A stretch of DNA of 64,000 nt from positions 1 through 64,000 of the forward strand of contig JAAUZY010000084.1 in the NCBI GenBank assembly GCA_014804355.1, read 5' to 3'. Below the pieces are notes generated by a model that saw nothing but the letters and a program-made list of their open reading frames with translations, searched no databases and was not told where the DNA came from. Origin of the DNA: Lachnospiraceae bacterium (GTDB lineage Bacteria; Bacillota; Clostridia; Lachnospirales; Lachnospiraceae). A program made the position numbers and the translations under genes. Shown in pieces: positions 41,794 through 47,423 of this stretch (position 1 is its first letter; the number at the start of each line of letters is the position of its first letter).

Positions 41794-42051
41794 ATGGGAG
41801 AATTTAACACAAACTTTATCTTAGGATGTTCGGCAATCGGTGCGGGACTTGCGGTTATCGCAGGTATCGGACCCGGTGTCGGTCAGGGTATTGCGGCAGG
41901 TCACGCGGCAGCAGCAGTCGGCAGAAATCCGGGCGCTAAGTCTGACGTTACCTCTACCATGTTGTTAGGACAGGCCGTTGCCGAGACAACAGGTCTGTAT
42001 GGTCTGTTGATCGCAATGCTGCTCTTATTCGTAAAACCTTTAGTACCATAG
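41794..42051 (+). CDS. atpE: ATP synthase F0 subunit c, Na+-type signature
   Basis: An 85-aa c-ring subunit, two helices around the loop GRNPGAKSD. The ion-binding Glu64 is in [14 protein letters not shown]. Gln31, Val62, Glu64, Thr65, Thr66 and Tyr69 match the sodium-binding set of Na+-translocating enzymes (Gln32, Val63, Glu65, Ser66, Thr67, Tyr70 in Ilyobacter tartaricus). So this ATPase probably runs on Na+ rather than H+. AAGGAGG precedes the ATG, as expected for the most abundant subunit. Confidence 0.96.
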
Positions 42052-42138
42052 AGATGAAGTTACACTAAGGCTGTATAGAACACAGCCTAAGTGCAACTAT
42101 AGTCATCTCTTGGAGAATGCAAAGAACGTGCATTCTCC
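42051..42138 (+). ncRNA. structured intercistronic RNA after atpE (atp element 1)
   Basis: Nested stems: GAGATGA (42051-42057) with TCATCTC (42103-42109); AGTTACACT (42058-42066) with AGTGCAACT (42090-42098), one mismatch; AGGCTGT (42068-42074) with ACAGCCT (42082-42088), 7-base loop. A second hairpin is GGAGAATGCA (42112-42121) with TGCATTCTCC (42129-42138). The same architecture with different paired bases recurs after atpD (47335-47423). Confidence 0.8.
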
Positions 42139-42174
42139 GGGGCTTGAGAATTGTGAAGAAAGGAGGATAAGAGC

Positions 42175-42738
42175 TTGAGTACATTAGCTACACAGATGGT
42201 AATGGCAGCCGCAGCAGAAATGGAACCAAGACTATTTGATCTGGATCTGCAGTTGATTGCGGATTCGGTTTTGATGATCATTGCGGTATTTACATTGTTT
42301 TTGGTTGCTTCTCATTATCTCTTCAATCCTGTCAGGGATATGATGCAGAACAGACAGGATCGGATCAAAAACGAGCTTGACAGCGCTGCAGCCGATATGG
42401 AAAATGCGAGAGCACTGAAAGAACAGTACGAAGCCAAGCTGAAAGAGATCGACAAGGAAGCCGAAGAAATCTTAAGCGAGGCCAGGAAAAAAGCGCTCGC
42501 CAATGAGAACAAGATCGTATCGGAAGCCAAAGAGGAAGCGTCGAGGATCATCGAGAGAGCCGGCGTGGAAGCAGAGCTGGAGAAGAAGAAAGCCGCCGAT
42601 GAAGTGAAGCGCGAAATGGTGGTTCTGGCATCCCTGATGGCGGGTAAAGTTGTGAGTGCTAAGATAGACACGACCGTTCAGGACAGTTTGATTGAAGAAA
42701 CGTTGAAAGAAATAGGTGAGGGCACATGGCTAAGCTAA
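42175..42738 (+). CDS. atpF: ATP synthase F0 subunit b
   Basis: The peripheral stalk subunit: one N-terminal membrane helix (VLMIIAVFTLFLVASHYLF, residues about 29-47) and a long helical domain to residue 160 rich in Ala/Glu/Lys. 187 aa. The start is TTG 42175, chosen because AGGAGG is 8 bases upstream; the next in-frame ATG (42196) has no RBS. It overlaps atpH by 13 bases. Confidence 0.93.
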   Translation: MSTLATQMVMAAAAEMEPRLFDLDLQLIADSVLMIIAVFTLFLVASHYLFNPVRDMMQNRQDRIKNELDSAAADMENARALKEQYEAKLKEIDKEAEEILSEARKKALANENKIVSEAKEEASRIIERAGVEAELEKKKAADEVKREMVVLASLMAGKVVSAKIDTTVQDSLIEETLKEIGEGTWLS

Positions 42739-43271
42739 TTTCAAAAACATATGGAGATGCATTATTTGAGCTTGCGGTAGAGGAAGGCAAAATAGATGTA
42801 TTGTCAGAAGAAATCCTACAGCTTCAAAAAGTGCTTGCGGACAACGAGTCTTTCGGCAGACTGATGAATCATCCCAAGATTATTGTCGAAGAGAAGATTC
42901 AGGTTGCGAAGAACGTATTTGAAGGCAGGGTGTCCGATGAACTGCTCGGATTTCTTAAAATCATCATTTCCAAAGACCGTTACAGAGATATCGACGAGAT
43001 TCTGGACTATTTTATTGCGGAAGTAAAGCGGTATAAGGGGATCGGCGTTGCAACGGTGACGACGGCTGTTCCGCTCAAGGAAGAACAGTGCAGCAAAATA
43101 GAACAGAAGCTGCTTGGAACAACTCAGTATGCGAAGATGGAAATGCATTTTCAGGTAGACGAAGCCCTGATCGGCGGTATGGTTGTCCGTATCGGCGACA
43201 GAGTGGTGGACAGCAGTATCAGGACAAAGTTAAATGAGCTGCAAAAAGAATTGTTAAAAGTTCATATCTGA
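42726..43271 (+). CDS. atpH: ATP synthase F1 subunit delta
   Basis: Links the peripheral stalk to the alpha/beta head. 181 aa with ISKTYGDALFELAVEEGKID at the N-terminus and the C-terminal IGGMVVRIGDRVVDSSIRTK LNEL motif conserved in delta/OSCP. It starts within the end of atpF, so it is translationally coupled. Confidence 0.95.
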   Translation: MAKLISKTYGDALFELAVEEGKIDVLSEEILQLQKVLADNESFGRLMNHPKIIVEEKIQVAKNVFEGRVSDELLGFLKIIISKDRYRDIDEILDYFIAEVKRYKGIGVATVTTAVPLKEEQCSKIEQKLLGTTQYAKMEMHFQVDEALIGGMVVRIGDRVVDSSIRTKLNELQKELLKVHI

Positions 43272-43337
43272 TCAGTCGGATTCGGCAGAAAAGCTATGAG
43301 CTTATATTCAAATTAAGAAGAAAGGTGCGTATGATCC

Positions 43338-45736: not shown

Positions 45737-45738
45737 TT

Positions 45739-45896
45739 ACAGTTCAGCCAGACCGAATTTGCCTGACAAATCATGCTTGCATGAATTTGGCAGACAAATG
45801 ATGGGCTGAGGGAACGCCTGCTAATGAGCAAAAGAAGCTGCAAGGCAGCGGGAAGCGCGGAACGCGCGGTTTTGCGAATGGCGTGAGCTGAACTGT
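45739..45896 (+). other. 158-base inverted-repeat-bounded spacer between atpG and atpD
   Basis: ACAGTTCAGC (45739-45748) and GCTGAACTGT (45887-45896) are perfect 10-bp inverted repeats bounding the spacer. Inside, CAGCC (45744-45748) can pair with GGCTG (45804-45808) over a hairpin with AAAT/ATTT and ATGC/GCAT stems. Further on GCGCG-GAA-CGCGC forms another stem. No ORF is visible. It could be an extended RNA structure or a short inserted element. Confidence 0.6.
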
Positions 45897-45928
45897 GCAA
45901 TAAATAACATGAGTGAAAGGAAAAAGAG

Positions 45929-47332
45929 ATGGCAGAAGTAAAAACAAGTGAAAATCTTGGAAAAATCACTCAGATTATCGGTGCTGTGTTGGATATCAAG
46001 TTTTCGGCGGGTAACCTGCCGGAGATTAATGACGCGATCAAGATTCCGCTCAAAGGCGGGGATGAACTGGTCGTAGAGGTATCACAGCATCTGGGTGATG
46101 ACACCGTTAGATGTATCGCTATGGGTTCTACTGACGGACTTGTGAGAGGTATGGATGCGATTGCAACCGGCGCGCCGATCACGGTTCCTGTAGGTGAGAA
46201 TACACTGGGACGTATCTTTAACGTTCTGGGCGAGCCGATCGATAACAAACCGGCTCCCACTGATGTAGGCTATGAGCCGATTCACAGACCGGCTCCCGCA
46301 TTTGAAGAACAGTCCACGGCTACAGAGCTTTTGGAGACAGGTATTAAGGTCGTTGACCTGCTGTGTCCTTACCAGAAGGGTGGTAAGATCGGTCTGTTCG
46401 GCGGTGCAGGCGTAGGTAAGACAGTTTTGATTCAGGAATTGATCCGTAATATTGCGACAGAGCACAGCGGTTATTCCGTATTTACCGGTGTAGGCGAGCG
46501 TACCAGAGAGGGTAACGATCTGTACCATGAGATGGAGGAGTCCGGCGTTATTGACAAGACTACCATGGTATTCGGACAGATGAACGAGCCGCCGGGAGCA
46601 AGAATGAGAGTAGGTCTGACCGGACTTACGATGGCGGAATATTTCCGTGATAAGGGCGGTAAGGATGTGCTGTTGTTTATCGACAATATCTTCCGTTTCA
46701 CGCAGGCGGGTTCTGAGGTGTCGGCGCTGCTTGGCCGTATGCCTTCGGCGGTTGGTTATCAGCCTACACTGCAGACGGAGATGGGTGCTTTGCAGGAGCG
46801 TATCACATCTACCAAGAGCGGTTCCATCACTTCTGTGCAGGCTGTATATGTGCCTGCGGATGACTTGACGGACCCGGCTCCGGCAACAACGTTTGCACAT
46901 CTGGATGCGACTACGACACTGTCCCGTTCTATCGTGGAATTGGGTATCTATCCGGCGGTGGATCCGCTTGAGTCCACGTCCAGAATTCTTGATCCGAGAA
47001 TCGTAGGACAGGAGCATTACGAAGTAGCCAGAGGCGTGCAGGAGATTCTGCAGAAATATAAGGAACTGCAGGATATTATCGCTATCCTCGGTATGGATGA
47101 GCTCTCCGAGGAGGATAAGCTGGTGGTTGCACGTGCGAGAAGAATACAGAGATTCCTGTCTCAGCCTTTCCATGTGGCGGAGCAGTTTACCGGCTTGAAT
47201 GGTAAGTATGTACCGATCACAGAGACGATCCGTGGATTTAAAGAGATTCTGGAAGGTAAGCACGATGATATTCCGGAGAGTTACTTCCTGAATGCAGGCA
47301 GCATAGACGACGTACTCGCGCGCGTTAAATAA
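45929..47332 (+). CDS. atpD: ATP synthase F1 subunit beta
   Basis: The catalytic subunit. 467 aa with Walker [16 protein letters not shown] near residue 154, the catalytic Glu region [16 protein letters not shown] near residue 183, Walker [17 protein letters not shown] near residue 250, and [11 protein letters not shown] near residue 390. AAAGG lies before ATG. Structured spacers lie on both sides. Confidence 0.98.
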
Positions 47333-47334
47333 AA

Positions 47335-47423
47335 AGACATGAAGAAATGCTAAGGTCGTAAAGGACACGACCTAAGAATTTCTAAGTCATGTCTGGAAGA
47401 ATGCATAAAGATTGCATTCTTCC
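47335..47423 (+). ncRNA. structured intercistronic RNA after atpD (atp element 2)
   Basis: AGACATGA (47335-47342) pairs with TCATGTCT (47387-47394); AGAAATGCT (47343-47351) with AGAATTTCT (47375-47383), one mismatch; AGGTCGT (47353-47359) with ACGACCT (47367-47373), 7-base loop. The second hairpin is GGAAGAATGCA (47395-47405) with TGCATTCTTCC (47413-47423). Stem lengths, loop size and order equal those of the element after atpE, while the paired bases differ in compensating fashion. Confidence 0.8.

Follow-up and report, generated by a model that had tools for sequence, protein, structure and literature searches.

The atp operon in the window analysed here (the whole stretch of 64,000 nucleotides from a Lachnospiraceae bacterium) contains two similar hairpin elements, one after atpE and one after atpD, and the question it raises is whether these elements form a dedicated control of ATP synthase or belong to something more general. 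The first-pass annotation had described both as one two-hairpin design that begins at or near a stop codon, is shaped by selection on structure and may serve mRNA processing, transcript stability or subunit stoichiometry. The features concerned are collected in Table 1; gene calls throughout are those of crude gene finders.

Table 1. Elements and neighbouring genes in the window (R1 is the covariance model described in the text).
Feature	Position	Strand	Description	Further evidence
Copy 1, hairpin 1	42050..42110	+	stem in three tiers with an A.A mismatch and a bulge (ATAG) on the 3' side, loop ATAGAAC; first base within the atpE stop codon	R1 match 42048-42113, 71.8 bits
Copy 1, hairpin 2	42111..42139	+	arms GGAGAATGCA/TGCATTCTCC; without U-tract	absent from the 8 terminator-like sites that the scan found
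Copy 2, hairpin 1	47335..47394	+	loop AAAGGAC; starts 2 nt past the atpD stop codon	R1 match 47333-47397, 83.3 bits
Copy 2, hairpin 2	47395..47423	+	arms GGAAGAATGCA/TGCATTCTTCC	not among the terminator-like sites
Probable degenerate third copy	27718..27795	+	short hairpin 1 then another hairpin; about 70 nt past the stop of ORF 26779-27648	R1 match 27718-27774, 31.4 bits, E 3.8e-4; fold of 27700-27800, z -3.2
atpE, host gene preceding copy 1	41794..42051	+	ORF; AtpE relatives 92-100% identical within the same genus	stop codon TAG 42049-42051 by direct reading
atpF, gene downstream of copy 1	42175..42738	+	name from operon order	
atpD, host gene preceding copy 2	45929..47332	+	name from operon order	stop codon TAA 47330-47332 by direct reading
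atpC, gene downstream of copy 2	47459..47869	+	name from operon order	

Folding confirms each part of the described design in both spacers, namely the three-tier stem with its 7-base loop and middle-tier mismatch, and the second hairpin; the stop codons lie where the design places them. The predicted fold of copy 1 (42050-42139) has an energy of -44.0 kcal/mol, compared with -19.3 +/- 2.6 for shuffled sequences (z -9.5), and that of copy 2 (47335-47423) has -43.5, compared with -16.7 +/- 3.2 (z -8.3); for each copy, 0 of 200 shuffles folded as well as the real sequence. Two features that the first-pass annotation did not emphasise are common across the family to which the copies belong: the A.A mismatch of CUA[A]GG/CCU[A]AG, and a bulge on the 3' side that reads AAG or ATAG. 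The antisense strands fold at least as well (-51.1 for copy 1 and -44.3 for copy 2), so the acting strand is not told by folding alone.

The extent of this family can be determined by searching with a covariance model and with the element core. The model, R1, rests on 40 type-A copies chosen from 51, themselves thinned from 72; the 11 that were left out had inserts, a missing or unusual bulge or decay, or were the second copy of a tandem. Covariance-model matches occur at 49 places in the genome of the window (50 matches, one place being matched on both strands), and the core occurs there at 17 places with at most 3 mismatches, against 1 for the control pattern read backwards; a few matches to the 5' arm sit away from known copies. 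The core is also matched in records named Parablautia intestinalis D8-82 and Eisenbergiella tayi DSM 26961, in the latter as type B. The search of relatives that the first-pass annotation had proposed gave matches in at least 34 of 37 genomes of the same genus and at least 23 of 150 of the family, these counts being lower bounds because searches across more than 40 genomes used stricter filters, under which none of 24 genomes from other families of the order had a match among the scored candidates. Relatives rich in matches include G176 (at least 46), G172 (at least 45), G152 (at least 29), G150 (at least 26), G162 (at least 22), G183 (at least 20), and G151 and G158 (at least 19 each). For the analysis of copies, 48 were taken from the own genome (the overlapping tandem copy C43:57687 was left out) and 80 stretches from relatives, among the matches listed; removing 5 opposite-strand or overlapping matches and 4 that were duplicates or had a short flank reduced 145 matches to 136 copies.

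The repeated unit consists of hairpin 1, of about 60 nt, often followed immediately by hairpin 2 and then by a weakly conserved tail, and G172 carries two tandem pairs with periods of 118 and 114 nt. By the crude gene finder only 2 of the 136 de-duplicated copies lie inside an ORF, and the many scattered intergenic copies per genome are those expected of small dispersed palindromic intergenic repeats. Rfam has no family that accounts for them, which agrees with the earlier remark that no known RNA class has this layout: neither in the window nor in 8 rpsH loci does any family score above its gathering cut-off, and the only hit in 18 other loci is a tRNA away from the element. At a lax threshold the region 41900-42300 yields only mir-2797, on the antisense strand, with 25.3 bits where the cut-off is 74. 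Neither phage sequences (searched with copy 1) nor plasmid sequences (with copy 2) nor viral contigs (with a strict core pattern) yielded a match, and none of the open-access PMC titles listed concerns a Lachnospiraceae repeat of this kind.

A dispersed repeat may be maintained with or without constraint on its fold, and the covariation of paired positions bears directly on this. Across the 40 copies of the model, 18 of 24 pairs have changed on both sides, and 91.9% of cells are paired, compared with 70.8% in shuffles and 30-42% when the partners are slid. Orthologous sites provide a closer comparison. From 23 candidate pairs of copies one (L247:1829/L114) was left out, its flanks not being orthologous, and one (L208/L101) is matched by its upstream flank only; the resulting 22 pairs contain 408 unchanged, 76 double-changed, 11 one-sided and 30 unpaired cells. 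In the 19 of these pairs that were used (the other three include copies of a length other than 65 nt), which involve 12 own copies, there are 69 double changes, 9 one-sided changes and 25 unpaired cells, and the slid-partner control gives 2-5 double changes. Several of the 19 share an own copy; with one pair per own copy the counts are 29, 7 and 11, and 1-2 double changes in the slid control. The stems vary, and the loop motif A(A/T)A(G/A)NAC and the CUAAG motifs are nearly constant. As judged from these comparisons the pairing is under structural constraint, and the proposal that the elements are homologous, with compensating changes that reflect selection on structure, is upheld. In one comparison (L209 with L100) the double changes occur with few intermediates, and template switching between the arms or gene conversion could also yield such changes.

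The copies also turn over between species. Orthologous atp and rpsH-rplF spacers differ by gain, loss and duplication, so that the presence/absence differences expected of small dispersed repeats are found at both: copies lie after atpG in G176, G162 and G172, and the copy after atpD is mostly lost in G176 and G172. No clear target-site duplication was seen by eye in the atp and rpsH spacers, those of the compared species being strongly diverged. The inner stem has been lost in some copies; such losses and the site differences between species fit near-neutral repeats equally. The possibility which the first-pass annotation had set against its own reading, that the elements are remnants of a mobile repeat free of structural constraint, is thus borne out with respect to the dispersed repeat and its turnover, but not with respect to the constraint, which is present.

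Orientation and position separate the two strands where folding does not. Of the copies that lie between codirectional genes, 110 are in sense and 4 in antisense orientation, and in the rpsH neighbourhood all 37 model matches are on the gene strand. The start of the element coincides with the upstream stop codon in 80 of the 110 sense copies, where uniform placement would give 18-37. Of the 49 copies away from stops, 22 have a TATAAT sequence, with no more than 1 mismatch, that ends at element base +1; among the 85 copies at stops 18 do, and such a box appears at any other offset in at most 4 copies (a count that leaves out offset -40, a slicing artefact). A short upstream ORF (ATGAAG..TAA) was also considered and was rejected, other lineages being without the ATG. 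Strand and position, as far as sequence can indicate, point to the transcript.

The balance of this evidence tips slightly towards the reading in which both spacers hold members of a new family of dispersed hairpin repeats in Lachnospiraceae, which would act as a strand-specific mRNA boundary; that the family has some role in mRNA processing or stability is probable. The copies would have spread as a non-autonomous element, for which no autonomous form was found, and would persist at sites where they do no harm or bring a benefit. Once transcribed, the hairpins would form immediately after the ribosome that terminates at the stop codon, or, behind a promoter, at the mRNA 5' end, and would serve as a boundary either by being cut by a double-strand ribonuclease or by stopping exonucleases; genes adjacent in one operon may then differ in mRNA stability. 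A more specific version is offered tentatively, and we think it rather less likely than not to hold in full: that the repeat is a new RNA signal, a mobile hairpin whose recognition core (CUAAG and A(A/T)A(G/A)NAC), common to type A and type B outer architectures, would be read by a trans-acting factor and would set up, at the ends of genes and the 5' ends of mRNAs, a strand-specific boundary for processing or stability, rewiring atp and ribosomal-protein operons species by species.

The most serious alternative, which we regard as possible but doubtful, is a neutral or selfish MITE-like DNA repeat, whose palindrome would serve mobility, whose covariation would come from conversion or template switching, and whose positions would reflect a TA/TAA target together with purging from genes. 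The resemblance of copies within a lineage, the tandem copies and the site differences described above are consistent with this, as is the predominance of TAA among stops at offset 0 (27 of 29; among long ORFs in L275-L288 the figure is 76 of 162), and the two ends of hairpin 1 are paired in its outer stem as terminal inverted repeats would be, with hairpin 2 lying outside them. The excess of sense copies, however, is unexpected given the equal folding of both strands, the anchoring at stops exceeds that of uniform placement, and the A.A mismatch and bulge have been kept where palindrome correction would tend to erase both.

It is improbable that the elements are intrinsic terminators or attenuators, with hairpin 2 ending transcription in part and hairpin 1 modulating it. 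Some copies elsewhere do end hairpin 2 in GTTTTTC-like runs (for example L024 and L031), but the terminator scan of the window found no U-tract after a GC hairpin at either element, and copies lie between rpsH and rplF, clpP and clpX, and carA and carB, positions at which complete termination would shut off genes that are needed.

A dedicated regulatory RNA of the atp operon setting subunit stoichiometry, the reading with which this analysis began, is very improbable. It would account for two copies within one operon and for the copy after atpE common to the own genome, G176, G150 and G162, but a clear copy follows atpE at only 4 of 30 AtpE loci, 7 of 11 atp regions compared are without an R1 match (one of them, G181, keeps readable remnants), and the copies move among the E-F, G-D and D-C spacers. 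The matches scattered through the own genome lie in unrelated operons (atp, rpsH-rplF, clpP-clpX, carA-carB), and 25 of its upstream genes are stop-anchored, of which 21 were scanned and 19 match Pfam families of 17 kinds. The notion of an atp-specific element was accordingly dropped; the two elements appear instead to belong to a genome-wide repeat family.

REP/BIME sequences are dispersed extragenic palindromes, and those of E. coli reportedly lie close to stop codons. REP elements moved by a RAYT/Y1 transposase would likewise be dispersed, intergenic and sometimes tandem, and there are 16 Y1 matches in G172 and 1 in G152, but this reading is scarcely credible and was rejected, since the own genome and six copy-rich relatives (G176, G150, G162 (completeness 100), G183, G151 and G158), some of these assemblies being incomplete, have no match to Y1_Tnp (PF01797), the only profile with which a transposase partner was sought, and none was found.

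Among known repeats, the family is comparable to ERIC and to the NEMIS/Correia elements of Neisseria, which comprise at least 100 short repeats per genome with strain-variable placement, form an mRNA hairpin by terminal pairing and bind RNase III, and can create a promoter with a -10 in the first 6 bases, the -10 box of some lying at the outer end and being fed by a native -35 (PMC2649163). A -10-like box at the element end is found here by sequence in 40 of 134 copies. The Lachnospiraceae repeat differs in sequence and phylum, in being mostly sense and starting at stop codons, and in having two hairpins whose A.A mismatch, bulge and loop vary little. We know of no sequence shared by this repeat and ERIC. 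The ERIC (IRU, RU-1) repeats of enterobacteria are also palindromic and intergenic, with a length of 127 bp (PMC2759123), and act on upstream transcripts in an orientation-dependent manner (PMC2229807), but the part of the latter text available makes no mention of anchoring at stop codons. With the structured RNA families of Rfam the repeat shares covarying structure in UTR-like positions.

In the Lachnospiraceae, one of the major families of gut bacteria, the processing of operon mRNA has been little studied. Dozens of sense copies pinned to stop codons among atp, ribosomal, clp and car genes constitute natural replicated experiments, and sister species in which the same operon occurs with and without the element allow direct comparison. 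The presence of two covarying elements in an operon does not by itself imply an operon-specific regulator.

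The spacers that follow atpE (copy 1) and atpD (copy 2) were described in the first-pass annotation as two homologous, covarying RNA elements of two hairpins each. Since the fold energies of both spacers lie 8 to 9 standard deviations under those of dinucleotide shuffles, and since the alignment of the copies (mean column identity 84%) contains the paired differences that had been listed, this description is correct and chance is excluded. The sense and antisense strands of these copies fold equally well.

Hairpins of the two atp copies in the window
Feature	Position	Strand	Basis
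Hairpin 1, copy 1 (after atpE)	42050-42110	+	spacer read and folded
Hairpin 2, copy 1 (after atpE)	42111-42139	+	spacer read and folded
Hairpin 1, copy 2 (after atpD)	47335-47394	+	spacer read and folded
Hairpin 2, copy 2 (after atpD)	47395-47423	+	spacer read and folded

The hairpin elements of the atp spacers belong to a family dispersed through the genome. For hairpin 1, the core pattern occurs at 17 places in the source genome at <=3 mismatches (reversed pattern: 1), and in 73 stretches among the 84,980 species genomes searched, 62 of them named as Lachnospiraceae or member genera and 11 under wider or other names, including Clostridia bacterium, Ruminococcus, Lactobacillus rogosae and Muribaculum. 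R1, a covariance model restricted to hairpin 1 (40 copies, 24 pairs), finds 49 places in the 3.85-Mb source genome and, in searches whose counts are lower bounds, matches in at least 34 of 37 genomes of the same genus (1 to 49 per genome) and in at least 23 of 150 genomes sampled from the family (1 to at least 35 per genome, scoring being capped at 35 candidates). The same searches matched none of 24 genomes from other families in the order. No match was found in phage (copy 1), plasmid (copy 2) or viral (strict core pattern) collections. A third, weak relative of the element (31.4 bits with R1) lies at window 27718-27795, after a plus-strand ORF. Genes upstream of source-genome copies include those for a FakA-like protein, ABC permeases, CarA (followed by CarB), a penicillin-binding protein (then a MraY-like protein), ClpP (then ClpX) and ribosomal protein S8 (then L6). 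The atp-specific role first proposed must be rejected, given the number of places, the unrelated hosts, and the shifting of copies among atp spacers.

In the genome contig collection the core is carried by two outer architectures: type A, that of the window copies, and type B, found in Eisenbergiella, Mediterraneibacter and others, whose outer arms are unlike those of type A; two type-B loci fold with the core unchanged (z -3.0 and -3.9). In some type-A copies (L021, L048, L049, L051) an extra hairpin replaces the 3' bulge, and tandem duplication of the first arm at L097, L212, L200 and L151 suggests either slippage or that one copy inserted into another.

The hairpin structure of the family is constrained, its pairing being kept while the letters change, as had been proposed for the two atp copies. 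Among 40 copies, both-sided changes occur in 18 of 24 pairs (5 are invariant and 1 departs by unpaired cells only), and double-changed cells number 198, against 65 in shuffles and 24-49 with the partner slid. In a mobile family, differences between copies may have other causes, and so orthologous sites, the same place in different species with flanks matched, were also compared. In 19 such pairs 69 cells changed on both sides and 9 on one side only, 353 being unchanged and 25 unpaired, against 2-5 double changes with the partner slid; with one pair per source-genome copy (n=12) there are 29 double, 7 one-sided and 11 unpaired cells (slid, 1-2). At the copy behind the penicillin-binding-protein gene, the flanks in the source genome and the related genome G176 are 94% and 96% alike and a site-specific hairpin 2 is common to both, and hairpin 1 differs both-sidedly at 7 pairs. 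The scarcity of intermediates implies either fast compensation or joint replacement of both arms (conversion or template switching). Three features vary little, namely the loop A(A/T)A(G/A)NAC, the A.A mismatch and the bulge on the 3' side, which speaks against palindrome repair as the sole source of the kept pairing.

Sites differ between species. In 11 atp operons compared, copies follow atpE in the source genome, G176 and G162 (G172 has a degenerate one, and in G181 a remnant of the outer stem is left), and follow atpG in G176, G162 and, as a tandem pair, G172 (decayed in G181). After atpD the source genome has its copy, G172 keeps the outer stem and hairpin 2 only, and all that is left in G176 is the final arm of hairpin 2. 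R1 matches are absent from the stretches searched for 7 of the 11 operons: in G181 remnants are still readable, and in the six others the spacers are short or unrelated, with pieces resembling hairpin 2 in G180. A clear copy is present at 4 of 30 AtpE loci, L152 being on a contig that ends too early to judge. Copies have multiplied in tandem in G152, and in two species whose S8 is 100% identical to that of the source genome the rpsH-rplF gap is 46 nt, versus 170 nt in the source genome when measured alike.

In the 58 rpsH surroundings all 37 R1 matches at E <=0.01 are on the gene strand. By positions read by eye, a match lies between rpsH and rplF in 14 of 30 genus loci and upstream of rpsH in 14 of 30. 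In other genera 2 of 28 loci have a match (G031, 68.4 bits; G087, a weak 29.4), and G022 has the first arm only. Loci of other family genera (L307, L310-L312, L314-L316, L319, L320, L322, L324, L325) carry in the rpsH-rplF spacer, ahead of rplF, a conserved hairpin, ACTGAAAACAGA..(stem)..CCGA(A/G)AAT(T/C)TAAGT, with no Rfam match in six of them, which is possibly a ribosomal-protein leader.

Sister species have other palindromic repeats in these spacers (atpE-atpF at L164; rpsH-rplF at L331, L336, L342 and L347); they look unrelated and some are in tandem, as though each spacer were a hot spot for such hairpins. The atpG-atpD spacer (window 45737-45905) holds another kind of structured repeat, ACAGTTCAGC...GCTGAACTG, which occurs once more in the source genome (C1:61831-61986, 83%); G172 and G180 have GTTCAG palindromes resembling it between atpA and atpG.

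Position was analyzed with custom gene calls for 136 de-duplicated copies (48 from the source genome, 88 from relatives). Between same-strand genes 110 are sense and 4 antisense; 11 lie between divergent genes, 4 between convergent genes, and 7 are unclear (30, 3, 8, 4 and 3 in the source genome). The element starts between -12 and +4 relative to the upstream stop codon in 80 of the 110 sense copies, while uniform placement in the same spacers predicts 18 to 37, depending on unit length; in the source genome 23 of 48 copies are at a stop codon. The commonest stops are TAA/TAG directly before or at the first element bases, or TGA/TAA within the first arm. Among 49 copies away from stops, 22 have a TATAAT box (<=1 mismatch) ending at base +1, so that RNA initiated there would start with most of the hairpin. 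Since both strands fold alike, the sense bias points to a reader of the sense RNA or to strand-specific insertion, and the data fit both.

A purely neutral repeat is a serious rival explanation. Target duplication was not found by eye in the atp and rpsH spacers, where the sequences of the compared species have diverged too far, nor was a transposase partner: a search for Y1 transposases had matches in G172 and G152 and none in the source genome, G176, G150, G162, G183, G151 and G158, some of these assemblies being incomplete. The reading to which we commit, with somewhat better than even confidence, is that this is a non-autonomous repeat whose RNA forms a strand-specific mRNA boundary, a way of working comparable to that of NEMIS/Correia elements (PMC2649163) and ERIC elements (PMC2229807). 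Transcription would run through the copies, nucleases may process the hairpin or the hairpin may protect the mRNA, and the repeat would spread by mobility.
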